A stretch of 64,000 nucleotides of DNA from Pseudomonas sp. MUP55 (lineage in GTDB: Bacteria; Pseudomonadota; Gammaproteobacteria; Pseudomonadales; Pseudomonadaceae), in the NCBI RefSeq assembly GCF_034043515.1, contig NZ_CP138214.1:310001-374000 (forward strand). The letters are read 5' to 3'. Both the position numbers and the translations under genes were made by a program. Every line of letters starts with the position of its first letter. Position 1 is the first letter of the stretch. Shown here piece by piece: positions 37,116 through 62,232 of this stretch. The notes beneath the pieces are model-generated. The model was not told the origin of the DNA. It made no database searches and saw only the letters and a program-made list of their open reading frames with translations.

Positions 37116-38093
37116 TCAGTTAGTGATGAATTTGGCGCTGATGTAAGGGGCGTAGTCCGGCAGCACGGCGTCGACCTTGCCTTGTTCCTTGAGGAACGCC
37201 GCGGTATCGGTGACGGCTTTGGTGGTCGGTGCGCCCAGCAGGGTGACCTGGTCGGCGGCCAGCGGGTAGACGTTGCCTTGCAGCAGCAGCGGGATGTCGC
37301 TGGCCTTGGCACCGGAGAGTTTCACCAGCTTGTCGACGTTGGTTTTGTCGGCGAGCCAGGCTTGTGGGTCTTTGCGATACGCGGCGTAGGCATCCAGGGT
37401 GACCTTGGCAAAGGCGGTGACGATTTCCGGATGCTTCTCGGCGAAGTCCTTGCGCACAATCCAGGCGTCGAAGGTCGGCGCGCCGAACTTGGCCAACTCG
37501 CCGGAAGTGATCAACACCTTGCCGTTTTCCTTGGCGACGCCGAGGGCCGGGTCCCACACGTAGGTGGCGTCGATATCACCGCGCTTCCAGGCGGCGATGA
37601 TGGCCGGTGGCGCGAGATTGAGGATGGTCACTTTCGAAGGGTCGATGTTCCAGTGCTTCAGCGCGGCCAGCAGGCTGTAGTGACCGGTGGACACGAACGG
37701 CACGGCGATCTTTTTACCGATCAGGTCCTGAGGGTTGTTGATCCCCGAGCCATCGCGGGCCACCAGGGCTTCGGCGCCGCCGATCTGGGTGGCGACGAGG
37801 AAGGTTTGCACCGGTACCTTGCGAGTGATCGCAGCGGTCAACGGGCTGGAACCGAGGTAACCGATCTGCACGTCGCCCGAAGCGATGGCGGCGATGATAT
37901 CGGCGCCATTGTCGAATTTGCGCCAGTCGATCTTGGCGTGGGTGGCTTTTTCATAGGCGCCGTCGGCCTGGGCGACTTTCGCCGGGTCTACGGTGGTCTG
38001 GTAAGCGACGGTCACGTCCGCCGCCTGGGCAAACAGGCTGGCACCGGCCAGGGACAACGCCGCCAGCAAGCGCAGTGGGGTCAGCAGTTTCAA
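37116..38093 (-). CDS. tauA: TauA, taurine-binding periplasmic protein
   Basis: A 325-residue receptor with signal peptide ending at FAQAAD and the family body [52 protein letters not shown]. It starts with TTG at 38093, nine bases after GAGG; no ATG lies nearby in frame. It heads tauABCD. Confidence 0.93.
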
Positions 38094-38232
38094 GGGGAAG
38101 CTCCTCAGTCAGGCGGCCGGGTGGTCGGCGTGTGAGGAGAATAAATGATCTAAGAATCAGAAAATAAATAACATTTTCGAATTAGCTTAGTGACAGAAGT
38201 AACCGTGAATCTCGAATGTGCAGAAAGCCAAT
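38094..38232 (-). promoter_or_regulatory. AT-rich promoter region of tauABCD
   Basis: A run of about 50 A/T-rich bases (38140-38195) upstream of tauA is the likely promoter and sulfur-starvation control site. The IS110 element starts just beyond it, so the operon is not interrupted. Confidence 0.5.
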
Positions 38233-38338
38233 GTGGGAGCAACTGTCTTATTGGATTCAATTCAGAAGTCATTTTCATAGGCAGCAAAGCTCCCACAGCT
38301 TAGGCCGTGCAATGCTGAAGGAAATTGCTGCTACCGAG

Positions 38339-39271
38339 CTAATCGGTGCGCTCTTTCCATTCAGTGCGGTCACGCAGCATCGCGTTCAGACGTACCAACA
38401 AAACGCGCATACAGGCGATCAACGCGACTTTGGCGCATTTCCCTTTATCACGTAGCGCCTTATATCGAGTCCCGAATTCTGGCTGGTCACGGATAACCAC
38501 CCAACAGGCCATGTAAAGTGAGCGACGGGCTGAAAACCTTCCGCCACTAATATGGCGTGCACCTTTATGCCTTCCGCTGTCGTTGTTGTACGGAGCGAGG
38601 CCCGCTAGTGCCGCGATAGGGCGCCCTCCAATCTCTCCCAGCTCAGGCAGGTAAGCCATAAGACTGGTGGCAGTAACCAGCCCGATTCCTTTGACTGAAC
38701 ACAGTCGAGCCACCTTTTCGCTATCTAACTCGTTCGCACTTTGACGAATCAGTTGATCTATCGCCTCCACTGCCACGGTCAAATAGTCGATATGGTTCTG
38801 TAATGCAGGCTTTACCGCATCGCAGGAAGCTGTTTTCAGGCGTCGTCTGTCGTCATCTCTTTGCTGAACAAAATGCTCCCGCTGCTGGACCAACGCGCGC
38901 AGCTTATCGTGCTCCGGGCTTGTAACTCGGGCGCTTGGCGAGTCTAGAACAGCTGCATAGTGCGCAAGAGACTTTGCGTCTATCGGGTCGGTTTTGGCTT
39001 GTTTGCCCATCGCCCTGGAAAAACTCTTGGCTCGGTGCGGATTGATGCAGATGACATCAAGGCCCGCAGCCTGAAGCGCCTTCATGACTTTGCGCTCATA
39101 ACCGCCAGTAGCCTCCAATACCACGCGACCAACCTGGTGAAGCAATAGCCACCCAATCAACCCAGGGAAATCTTCTTCGGCGTTAGCGCAATTTACCCCA
39201 ACGTCAACCTGATTAACTCGAGCCTCAAGGCTGTCCTTGGAAACATCAATACCTGCTGGATAGGAAAACAT
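38339..39271 (-). CDS. IS110-family DEDD transposase (recombinase)
   Basis: A 310-residue recombinase. The N-terminal DEDD domain shows GIDVSKDSL, VVLEATGGYERK and KTDPIDAKSLAHYAA. The C-terminal Transposase_20 domain contains VKGIGLVTATSLMAYLPELG and GLAPYNNDSGRHKGARHISG with the catalytic serine region. Full length and without stops, so probably active. ATG 39271 has AGAGGA seven bases before it; a TTG two codons earlier is possible. It is the only transposase gene in the window. Confidence 0.93.
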   Translation of the reverse strand: MFSYPAGIDVSKDSLEARVNQVDVGVNCANAEEDFPGLIGWLLLHQVGRVVLEATGGYERKVMKALQAAGLDVICINPHRAKSFSRAMGKQAKTDPIDAKSLAHYAAVLDSPSARVTSPEHDKLRALVQQREHFVQQRDDDRRRLKTASCDAVKPALQNHIDYLTVAVEAIDQLIRQSANELDSEKVARLCSVKGIGLVTATSLMAYLPELGEIGGRPIAALAGLAPYNNDSGRHKGARHISGGRFSARRSLYMACWVVIRDQPEFGTRYKALRDKGKCAKVALIACMRVLLVRLNAMLRDRTEWKERTD

Positions 39272-39299
39272 AGCCAAATCCTCTTACACTTAATGTGAG

Positions 39300-39450
39300 A
39301 GCGCTCTGGCTTGGCCCACGCTTGTAACTGTTCGAGGTGGGCTCGTTCAACTGTTCGGGCTCATGTCCAGAGCGGAGAGGTGAGTAGCAGCGTGGGCTCC
39401 CACACGTGCTTTAAGCACTCGGGGCATTCAGCTTGCTACTCACCGCTCTC
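39300..39450 (-). ncRNA. Candidate bridge RNA of the IS110 element
   Basis: This region is upstream of the transposase and is read on its strand. Stem-loop 1: GGTGAGTAGCA (39379-39389) pairs with TGCTACTCACC (39434-39444). Stem-loop 2: GCTCTGG (39303-39309) pairs with CCAGAGC (39367-39373), with an inner GCCCAC/GTGGGC stem. In RNA sense, loop 1 has GCCCC then TGTGGGAG, matching the left target half and the complement of the right half including the core. Loop 2 has ACAGTTG then ACAAG, matching the element's own end at 38240-38246 and, with core, 39478-39482. Exact RNA ends are unknown. Confidence 0.7.
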
Positions 39451-39480
39451 ACCCTCAGTCTAATCCTGGCTCAAGACACA

Positions 39481-39562
39481 AGGGGGCTTGCTCCCGATAG
39501 CGGTGGATCAGTCACCGATGGGTCGACTGACACTCTGCTATCGGGGGCAAGCCCCCTCCCAC
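39481..39562. repeat. Right part of the IS-split REPIN (left part at 38233-38239)
   Basis: Continuation of GTGGGAG from 38239, then the full inverted partner ending CCCAC at 39562. Rejoined, it would be a normal REPIN of about 87 bases, like the six others of this type. Confidence 0.88.
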
Positions 39563-39580: not shown

Positions 39581-41164
39581 TTAGTTGCTGATCGCCAGAA
39601 TGCTCGCCTGGTACGAGCCGACGAACACGTCGAAATCGCCCACTTCGTTCTGCTCAAGCTCAGCCTGTTGAGCCAGCGATGTACGCGCCAGTTCTTCAAA
39701 ATGCGCCTGTTCCTCAACGGGAAGCGGTTCCTTGCGAAAGTACTCAGCGTGCAGCTCGCTCTGGTGCAGCGAGAACTGTGCAAAGCTTTCCTTGCGCTCG
39801 GCCATCGTGGCCAGCACCTGAGCCGACGGCGTCAGGGACGGGTCGTTGACCTTGGCCAGTTGAGCGTCCAGGGCCTGGCTGTGTTCAGTGATGCCATGGC
39901 TCTCATCGAGCAGGGCGGCCAGTGGTGCGATTTTTTCCAGCAGTTCTCCGGCCCACTCTTTCAGGTCCACTGCCTGGCCTTCGCGCTGCAATTGCAGGCC
40001 CGGCCGGCGGCCCTCCTTTACCACGCTGAGGAAGTTGGAGGTGGCATTGCCGCATTCGTTGTTGGCGAACAGCGGGCTGTCGTTCAGCGCGCAATACAGC
40101 AGGAACGCGTCGAGAAAGCGCGACTCTGAAAGGTCGATGCCCATCGGCAGAAACGGGTTGATGTCCAGGCAGCGCACTTCAATGTACTGGATGCCACGGG
40201 CCATCAGCGCCTGGATCGGCCGCTCGCCGGTATAGGTCACGCGCTTGGGCCGGATATTGGAGTAGTACTCGTTTTCGATCTGCAGGATATTGGTGTTGAG
40301 CTGCACCCACTCACCGTCCTTGTGCGTGCCGATTTCGACATACGGCGCGTAGGGCGTTGCCACCGCTTCGCGCAGGCTGTCGGTGTAGCTGGCCAGGTCG
40401 TTGTAGCACGGCGTAAGGCCGGCCTGGGCGTTGCTCTGGTAACCCAGGTCGCTCATGCGCAGGCTGGTGGCGTATGGCAAGTACAGCGTTTCGGCGTCGA
40501 GCACTTCCAGCTGGTGCGAGCGACCGCGCAGGAAACCCGCATCCAGCGCCGGTGAGGCACCGAACAGGTACATCAACAGCCAGCTGTAGCGACGGAAGTT
40601 ACGAATCAGCGCGATATAGGCGGTGGATTGGTAGTCGCGGTCGGTGCCGACAAACCTTTCGGCTGCCTTGAGCAACGGCCACAGCTGTTCGGGCAGCGAA
40701 AAGTTGTAGTGGATGCCGGCGATGCATTGCATGGTCTTGCCGTAGCGCAGGGCCAGGCCCTTGCGGTAAACGTACTTGAGCTGCCCGATATTGGACGTGC
40801 CGTAGTAGGCAATCGGAATGTCTTCCTCGGCCGGCAACGGGCACGGCATCGAGGGGCTCCACAGGTATTCGCTGCCCAGCTTGCTGTAGGCAAAACGATG
40901 GATCTTGTCCAGGCTGCTCAGGGTATCGGCCGGGTTGGGCAGCGCGGGAGTGATGAACTCCAGCAGCGATTCCGAGTAGTCGGTGGTGATCTGCTCGTGG
41001 GTCAACGCGGCGCCCAGGGCTTCGGGATGCGGCGTCTGGGCCAGGCGACCTTCGCTGGTGACGCGCAGGCATTCACGCTCGATGCCATGCAGGCAGTGCT
41101 CTAGCAGGGAGAGGTGTTCGCGCTTGCCGAGCAGGGCCAGGCGGCGGTTGAGAAGTTCGCTCAA
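39581..41164 (-). CDS. gshA: Glutamate-cysteine ligase
   Basis: A 527-residue proteobacterial-type gamma-glutamylcysteine synthetase, the first step of glutathione synthesis, using ATP. Recognisable regions are [44 protein letters not shown] and [18 protein letters not shown] chose the TTG at 41164, giving [13 protein letters not shown] and the usual 527-residue length with AAGGAA in front; a GTG at 41179 is possible. The gene follows the sulfur operons but is a core gene in Pseudomonas. Confidence 0.94.
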
Positions 41165-41378
41165 GTTGGATTCCTTCACGCGTCAGTCGCCCCAATATGG
41201 GGGTGGGCAAGACGGTCTACAAGGGTGAAGTTGAAACTGGCGTGATCGCCTGGTTCTGAGTCGATTTGACCCGCTCTGAATATGCCTACTTCACTCCATG
41301 AATTGGGCTACAGCGAAGCGATAAAATTCCGACGCTGTTGTCGCAGCGCCGAAATTAACTCAAATCAGGGGCAGGGAG

Positions 41379-61471: not shown

Positions 61472-61954
61472 TCAGTCACGGTAACGATGCTTGTTCTTGC
61501 GATGCCCATAGGCATGACCGCGGCCTGGGTGACCATCGCGGTAGTAGCGACGGTCATCACGGTCACGCCCACGATAACGACGGTCATCGTCATCGCTCTT
61601 GTTGCCCATGTAGTTGCCCAGTGCGCCACCTGCACCACCGCCGGCCGCTGAGCCGATCAGTGCGCCAGTGCTGCCGCCGACACTGCGGCCTACGACGTTG
61701 CCGCCGGCTGCGCCCAGTGCGCCGCCAATGGCGGCTTCGCCACGGCTGCGCTTGTCGGCGCCGACCGCACTGCCGCCCGCGCCACCCAGCGCTGCGCCGA
61801 TGGTCGAACCGGTGTTGCCGCCCAACTGCTGGCCGACAACCGAGCCTAGAACCCCGCCCAATGCGCCGCCCACACCGGCTTCGGTGGTGCCACCGGCCAT
61901 GGCTGCGCCACTGACCAGGCCTAGGGACAACAAGAGAATCGAGGAGAACTTCAT
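61472..61954 (-). CDS. Glycine-zipper envelope protein
   Basis: A 160-residue protein with a signal peptide (SGAAMAGG), a Gly/Ala-rich stretch of glycine-zipper repeats (GGVLGSVVGQQLGGNTGS onward) and a charged C-terminal tail rich in Arg, Asp, Tyr and His. Such proteins sit in or across the envelope. Function unknown. Confidence 0.78.
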   Translation of the reverse strand: MKFSSILLLSLGLVSGAAMAGGTTEAGVGGALGGVLGSVVGQQLGGNTGSTIGAALGGAGGSAVGADKRSRGEAAIGGALGAAGGNVVGRSVGGSTGALIGSAAGGGAGGALGNYMGNKSDDDDRRYRGRDRDDRRYYRDGHPGRGHAYGHRKNKHRYRD

Positions 61955-62049
61955 TCAGGGAAACCTCAAGGGGATGACGGCGCGATCCTGAGGTTGTATC
62001 GAGGCGCTGACAATCGAAATCCGACCGGCGGCAGGGGTTGTATACAATT

Positions 62050-62145
62050 TGCTAAGTTGCTGTTTTGTATAGGGAACTTAAGCTGTTTTTACGAGTCTTT
62101 AGCTACTTCGGAACGGCCGCTTTTGTAAAAAAGCGGCCTTTTTTT
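62050..62145 (+). ncRNA. Candidate small RNA ending in a strong terminator
   Basis: A perfect 10-bp stem (GGCCGCTTTT/AAAAGCGGCC, 62115-62138) followed by seven T reads on the plus strand, but no plus-strand gene lies upstream and both flanking genes are on the minus strand. A TTGTATACAAT stretch precedes it (62038-62048). The transcript start is uncertain. Confidence 0.4.
62115..62145 (+). terminator. Strong orphan factor-independent terminator
   Basis: Ten paired bases and a TTTTTTT tail on the plus strand; see the candidate RNA 62050-62145. Confidence 0.85.
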
Positions 62146-62181
62146 GTGCCTGTAAAATGTGTAGCGGTAATGCGGGCCTCT

Positions 62182-62232
62182 TCGCGGGCAAGCCCGCTCC
62201 CACATTTTAAATGCCTTTCAAATGTGGGAGCC
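62182..62232. repeat. Two degenerate REP fragments
   Basis: CGCGGGCAAGCCCGCTCCCA (62182-62201) and GTGGGAGCC (62224-62232), the closer match being to a GCGGGCTTGCCCGC-type REP. Confidence 0.7.

Follow-up and report, generated by a model that had tools for sequence, protein, structure and literature searches.

A predicted bridge RNA at the left end of an IS110-group element inserted in Pseudomonas REP sequences

IS621, an IS110 element of Escherichia coli, is described as having a 177-nt bridge RNA (PMC11208160, PMC11208158). Every pairing made by this RNA is stated to include the core (PMC11208160), and its left target guide covers both core bases, CT (PMC11208158). Covariation between bridge RNAs and their targets has already been published for 5,511 target pairs (PMC11208160). 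In Pseudomonas putida KT2440, the IS110-family elements ISPpu10 and ISPpu9 were each located in REPs in 7/7 copies, with a 2-bp repeat (PMC1525189). ISPpu10 is also one of the six elements with a bridge RNA inspected by Durrant et al. in their Extended Data Fig. 10 (PMC11208160). REP-specific IS110 insertion in Pseudomonas, bridge RNAs and a published predicted RNA for ISPpu10 are thus the known ground from which our comparison starts. Two small RNAs of ISPpu9, Asr9 and Ssr9, have been interpreted as regulators of tnp (PMC8450116). In the IS1111 group, the RNA is usually located downstream of the gene and its strand order is reversed (PMC11187229).

We analysed a 64,000-nucleotide stretch of the Pseudomonas sp. 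MUP55 genome (NZ_CP138214.1, positions 310,001 to 374,000), referred to here as the window. It contains a 1,243-bp IS110-group element on the minus strand (38240-39482), located between genes for an ABC-transporter substrate-binding protein (37116-38093) and glutamate-cysteine ligase (39581-41179). In the single-contig, 5.95-Mb host genome, 11 near-identical copies have the same end bases and are each inserted at one same REP point; the sequence of the window copy is shared by 6/11 copies, itself counted, and the remaining ones are off by 1-5 bases. In all 11 copies GCAAGCCCC is found 5' of the left end and CTCCCACATT 3' of the right end, with outer flanks that are otherwise unlike. A CT core at both junctions (39481-39482 at the left end and 38238-38239 at the right junction, both minus strand) and a single REP position are common to 11/11 copies, indicating site-specific insertion with a 2-bp core. 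From the window sequence and the copy comparison, the left donor ACAGTTG corresponds to the right terminus of the element (38240-38246, minus), and the core plus right donor, CTTGT, to its left terminus (39478-39482, minus). The copy comparison also defines the two halves of the interrupted REP, GCCCC on the left (39483-39487, minus) and CCCACA on the right (38232-38237, minus). Indeed, a related genome (G004) has an unbroken REP of slightly different sequence at the same place, between stretches matching both window flanks. The target sequence for the window element reads GCAAGCCCCCTCCCACA, and its 13-base core, GCCCCCTCCCACA, has 1,112 matches in the host genome, 556 per strand.

Several further features were recorded around the element and its targets. 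Three solo right-end remnants of 33-55 nt occur in the host genome (L012:1501-1555, L013:1501-1539, L014:1501-1533); they still have CTCCCAC on their 3' side and are joined on the other side to different, mostly palindromic repeat-like sequence. Within the right end of the window element, the 8-mer TGTGGGAG, whose sequence is that of the right target guide described below, recurs inside a short inverted repeat, AAGCTGTGGGAGCTT (38287-38301, minus); similar sequence is kept in close relatives and absent from the 56-57% relatives. Two regions outside the window, G000:C1:569537-570270 and G000:C1:1331434-1332266, consist of REPs in tandem that recur every ~180-185 bp, and the second adjoins an element copy. 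Pseudomonas sRNA P34 (RF02405) was recognized at 61854-62231 of the window with 208 bits.

The recombinase gene (38339-39271, minus) encodes 310 amino acids counted from ATG. The program-made reading frame starts at TTG 39277, but the true start is probably the ATG at 39271-39269, as judged from an aligned methionine in all 12 relatives compared. The protein matches PF01548 (DEDD_Tnp_IS110) and PF02371 (Transposase_20), both over the cut-off. Glu-54, Asp-96, Asp-99 and Ser-233 are invariant and Asp-10 nearly so among the 12 relatives, and the catalytic residues align with those of IS621, for which we used the residue names in PMC11208158 with an inferred numbering offset of 2. Among solved chains, the closest profile match is ISCro4 (PDB 9t56, E 5.4e-45), and IS621 is matched with E 3.5e-43. 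Apparent in-frame stops in relatives of the L025/L026/L027 kind were rejected, as they are terminal stops.

The left terminus and the ATG are separated by 211 nt, which contain a conserved structured RNA upstream of the gene. The initial annotation had proposed that this region folds into two stem-loops holding four guide segments. In agreement with this, a 205-nt region folds with -83.4 kcal/mol (z -4.1), and 1/200 shuffles was equally good. The four segments, read on the minus strand, are found exactly at the places claimed, with the target guides in loop 1 and the donor guides in loop 2. The left target guide GCCCC (39421-39425) is identical to the top strand of the left target and ends right before the core, whereas the right target guide TGTGGGAG (39397-39404) is the complement of the CT core plus CCCACA. 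In the second loop, the left donor guide ACAGTTG (39348-39354) repeats the right terminus of the element, and the right donor guide ACAAG (39321-39325) is the complement of the core plus TGT. This last segment is invariant in 34 left ends and consequently falls outside the covariation test. Both right guides carry AG, the complement of the core. The predicted bridge RNA body, which comprises an outer helix, the target loop and the donor loop, extends over 39296-39453 (minus) in the alignment of the 34 left ends. In Rfam, no family reached the gathering score for the guide region, and there was none in the rest of the element.

A seekRNA arrangement of the IS1111 type would be in keeping with the related enzyme type and with REP targeting by the IS1111-group element ISPa11 (PMC11187229). 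Guides and structure are however located in the left end, upstream of the gene, and not in the right end downstream of it, and their order is that of IS110/IS621. We therefore assign next to no likelihood to this arrangement, and describe the region as a predicted bridge RNA of the IS110 type.

We collected relatives by recombinase similarity from the genus (20/298 genomes at E 1e-60 and 31/398 at E 1e-80), the family (20/398 at E 1e-50) and the class (16/369 at E 1e-50), with the window's genome counted each time, and from named genome contigs, of which the best 80 of 487 were used. A search of two sister genera returned no matching genome beyond those already in the set; viral contigs yielded two distant relatives only, and the best plasmid matches were all below 60% identity. 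For the structure alignment we used 34 distinct left ends with recombinase identities of at least 45%, among them the window and a copy from the same genome (L011), over 230 columns. The RNAalifold pairs 62-88, 63-87, 138-170 and 139-169 connect one guide with another and were excluded from the helix count. The alignment supports six helices with 36 pairs, in which 98.5% of 1,222 cells are paired and 19/36 pairs have changed on both sides. No shuffle out of 500 was as high in pairing fraction and both-side changes, 6/500 were so in the number of further pair types, and sliding the helix partners by 1-3 columns lowered pairing to 29-49%. A putative outer helix formed by 39446-39451 and 39296-39301 might enclose both loops; five of its six pairs never vary. 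With guide-guide pairs excluded, there are 29 G-U cells, plus 33 at one pair, versus 7 A-C cells. This excess favours the sense strand, and thus transcription in the direction of the gene. An antisense RNA, like Asr9 of ISPpu9, was considered for this region and set aside on the same counts.

A structured leader that overlaps the 5' leader of a transposase gene could also be a regulatory RNA for translation of that gene rather than a guide, and the ISPpu9 small RNAs are reported to affect tnp translation (PMC8450116). Such a role could coexist with guiding. Taken as the sole function, it does not predict that unpaired loop bases covary with insertion sites, as described below, and the pairing pattern here points to the sense strand, unlike the antisense Asr9. 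We regard a purely regulatory RNA as very unlikely, and examined the segments as guides of a bridge RNA.

We compared RNA and target positions in 31/34 left ends, leaving out L077, L086 and L034 for their incomplete flanks. Each RNA column was scored against 18 target positions for identity and for complementarity (8,280 tests, 2,000 target shuffles). Among the 45 strongest tests are columns 63, 64, 65, 61 and 62 with target positions -3, -2, -1, -5 and -4, corresponding to the left guide, and columns 86, 88, 84 and 85 with +5, +3, +7 and +6, corresponding to the right guide. Columns unrelated to the loops (e.g. 116, 147, 148, 158) also rank high, because the elements are related. When scored as whole diagonals, the left guide has 29.6 matches over expectation, the highest of 225 same-sense diagonals, with the runner-up at 7.4; the right guide (+3 to +8) has 18.4, the highest of 224 complement diagonals, with the runner-up at 7.2. 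Neither score was reached by any of 5,000 shuffles. As relatedness survives shuffling, a better control is the distance by which these two diagonals lead the rest.

These data bear on the possibility that the recombinase protein alone recognizes REPs and that the loop matches reflect shared descent, or REP sequence that the left end has taken up. In favour of this, close relatives do share ancestry and sit in similar REP-like sites, and several loop-unrelated columns rank high as well. Such an explanation does not account for four separate segments placed on either side of two hairpins, nor for the wide margins of the expected diagonals, for near-identical left ends that differ where their targets differ, or for distant relatives that match their own sites at other targets. 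Recognition by protein alone thus seems to us highly improbable.

For a wider comparison, we started from 232 recombinase-hit loci and left out 84 with less than 45% identity, 10 in which no left end was recognized, and L239. The 137 loci kept, with new genomes and further copies added to the earlier set, represent 103 unique insertions, 98 of them with complete flanks. The left guide is identical to its target in 429/490 cells, or 467 when wobble is counted, and with wobble all five positions are paired in 87/98 insertions. For the right guide 561/588 cells agree, and at least five of six positions do so in 98/98. The initial annotation had suggested comparing target-loop segments with the REP insertion sites of related elements; in this comparison, loop changes accompany changes of the site. 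When guides were swapped between elements, the left guide of the same element (15 types) was unsurpassed in 88/98 insertions but the single best in only 19, given how similar many guides are to one another. For the right guide (7 types), that of the same element was unsurpassed in 79/98 insertions and the single best in 72; in the other 19, a foreign right guide fitted better. Guides GCCCC, GCCCG, GUCCG, GGCCG, ATTCG, GCCAG, AGCUG and others match their own insertion sites; in G018, for example, an element with guide ATTCG has 6/6 insertions at ATTCG. Between L092 and L180, the C/T difference at column 62 is mirrored in their targets. The left ends of L179 and L086 differ in 8 columns, one of which is column 86 (G/A), fitting targets CTCCC and CTCCT. 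Misfits of the left guide are found in L178 (2/5) and in L094 and L016 (3/5 each), with some single mismatches elsewhere. The left guide of the G583 element (L160/L179/L272) scores 1/5 in the fixed register and 4/5 when shifted by one, and it was in this shifted register that the extraction pattern for the 98 insertions read it. In L239, a copy in G1045, the target-loop hairpin is altered (GGGC instead of GTGC), possibly reflecting a broken guide RNA.

By analogy with IS621, we placed handshake-guide positions after the right guides, CC in the target loop (39395-39396, minus) and CG in the donor loop (39319-39320, minus). The second donor-loop base (column 175) complements target position -2 in 30/31 rows, of which only two have changed, both in a matching manner (L088, L090). 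In the 98 insertions this pairing is found in 95, the 3 misses belonging to one guide family; most distant relatives whose left target can be read depart from it, as judged by eye. We retain as a lead that the second donor-loop handshake base may follow target -2. In the window element, the first base is C and faces another C at target -1, so that no pair forms there; it could pair with the G of the donor itself, an interaction that the handshake rule described for IS621 disfavours (PMC11208158).

We assembled a distant set from loci with less than 45% identity in which a right end of the form ACAGTNN precedes CT and the upstream sequence is long enough (35 loci, 33 distinct; 32-43% recombinase identity). 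The initial annotation had named related copies inserted at non-REP sites without corresponding loop changes as evidence against its reading. What we found is that the left ends of 29/33 of these relatives, at other target sequences, include six nucleotides exactly complementary to the right target of the same element, compared with 60/990 (6.1%) swapped combinations. With 7 nt the values are 25/32 for own and 17/926 for swapped targets. Most right guides are preceded by CG and a few bases and followed by C or T, and the right targets are varied, including CTAAAAGC, CTTTTTCG, CTGCGCTG, CTATCCTG and others. The left donor guide equals the left donor end (ACAGTTG, ACAGTTA, ACAGTCG or ACAGTCA) in 29/32 distant relatives, and end and guide agree in 7/10 cases where either departs from ACAGTTG, so that donor end and guide mostly change together. 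The test of left targets is less decisive in this set: 4 nt match in 11/14 own pairs against 34.5% of swapped ones, and 5 nt in 6/14 against 15.6%. Eight loci (L153, L166, L167, L168, L182, L186, L189, L192) have a common right target, CTTGTTA, and the right guide AACAAG. In several CTTGTTA-target relatives the sequence continues with GTTAGG, which we take to resemble one end of integron attC sites.

Together, the anatomy, the conserved structure and the covariation of guides with targets and of left donor guides with left donors lead us to propose, with high confidence, that the left end encodes a bridge RNA with one loop for the REP target and a 3' loop for the joined ends of the element. 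As in IS621, the RNA almost certainly specifies both target and donor; for REP specificity, which the initial annotation had predicted to be RNA-encoded, support comes from guide-target agreement above chance in the subfamily, and distant relatives at other target sequences likewise match their own sites. By analogy with IS621 (PMC11208160, PMC11208158), the recombinase would excise the element as a circle, and the joined right and left ends would restore a promoter at the circle junction. RNA driven from the junction would bind the recombinase and hold target and donor, its 3' loop reading the joined ends of the element through ACAGTTG and ACAAG. The RNA-bound DEDD/serine recombinase would then bring the excised circle and a REP together, and strand exchange at CT would leave an insertion that is scarless beyond the CT repeat. 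A candidate -10 element, TAGACT, is located at 39457-39462 (minus), and a candidate -35, TTGCTT, would exist only in the circle, at the TTG/CTT junction, with a 17-nt spacer. The hexamers are weak, with 3/6 and 4/6 consensus matches; the first two and the last base of the -10 are invariant in the 34 left ends. In L031 and L089, a left end shorter by one base is offset by an additional G at the right end, which preserves the junction spacing and hints that promoter spacing matters. In the integrated form, a promoter and terminator consensus scan found no passing promoter and nothing in the element.

We compared guides with the REP types of their hosts by counting GCCCCCTCCCACA and GCCCGCTCCCACA in 20 genomes (counts are given in this order). 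Hosts of GCCCC-guided elements are G000, the host genome (1112:8), G188 (1115:13) and G158 (518:61). Elements guided by GCCCG or GUCCG and with CCCACA targets occur in G121 (16:235), G175 (56:386), G179 (148:396), G219 (13:304), G046 (1:656), G262 (0:198), G156 (1:394), G010 (0:176) and G289 (0:50). The exception is G165 (370:19), in which a GCCCG-guided element sits at GCCCC in 3/3 copies, with a 4/5 left-guide match. The guide thus fits the commoner of the two types in 12/13 such hosts. G394, with guide GGCCG and CCTACA, has 48 GGCCGCTCCTACA sites and none of the GCCCCCTCCCACA and GCCCGCTCCCACA types. Some hosts do not obey a simple rule: in G289 the GGCCGCTCCTACA sites, 204 in number, exceed those of the type that its guide fits, and G603 (1:115) and G583 (0:217) have many GCCCG sites, yet their guides read otherwise. 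For G603 and G583, as well as for G018 (5:0), G161 (0:0), G320 (0:0) and G438 (0:0), the counted pair is other than their own target type. L018, L036 and L238, a GCCCG-guide element with 3/3 copies at GCCCC in a GCCCC-rich host, may represent a retargeting intermediate.

That guides largely follow the prevailing REP type of the host, that one element occupies mismatched sites, and that left guides, unlike those of IS621, pass over the second base of the core are the less expected points of our analysis. We lean slightly towards a scenario in which one IS110 lineage has been re-aimed repeatedly in nature by small bridge-RNA changes that track the REP dialect of the host. In this scenario, U or G in the guide would let one RNA use two REP types by wobble, the G165 element would have been caught before its guide changed, and the second donor handshake base may follow target -2. 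None of the titles and abstracts listed from open-licence papers dealt with bridge-RNA guides that follow host REP types.

Our analysis adds a well-supported natural predicted bridge RNA aimed at a repeat with 1,112 target cores in its host, in a family whose natural members show guide and target changing together. The natural guide variants and their targets form a test set for left-guide length, wobble, core pairing and handshake bases, and the same series allows for a test of how a mobile element keeps pace with a host repeat that changes. If specificity is RNA-coded, changing left-guide position -1 from C to G would favour GCCCG REPs, and changing column 86 from G to A would favour CTCCTACA.

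In comparison with known systems, the recombinase of IS621 is only distantly similar to the present one (profile E 3.5e-43), and the likeness to ISCro4, the nearest solved chain by profile, concerns the recombinase sequence only. The present element differs from IS621 in several respects. The initial annotation held that both left guides stop just before the CT core and counted this as an IS621-like trait. The first part is borne out by the window element, but the left guides of IS621 run into the core, and stopping before CT is thus a difference from IS621 and not a common feature. In the present subfamily, T at column 67 is found in 0/34 left ends and C at column 66 in 16/34, while several distant relatives do include CT in the left target guide. 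The window element has AG in its right guides and no CT in its left guides; since the authors state core-in-all-pairings for IS621, we record this departure as a variant. The right target guide comprises 8 nt including the core, compared with 4 in IS621, and the putative outer helix surrounds both loops where the published consensus has a 5' stem-loop (PMC11208160). ISPpu10 and ISPpu9, by their published description, resemble the present element in being IS110-family elements with REP insertion and a 2-bp repeat. IS621 itself shares with it the REP target, the CT core, an RNA in the left end and a DEDD and serine enzyme; a candidate circle-junction promoter is suggested for the present element by sequence. 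As the initial annotation had stated, the two agree in the order of their guides, and they also agree in strand sense, with the target loop preceding the donor loop, left guides in the same sense as their DNA and right guides complementary to it.
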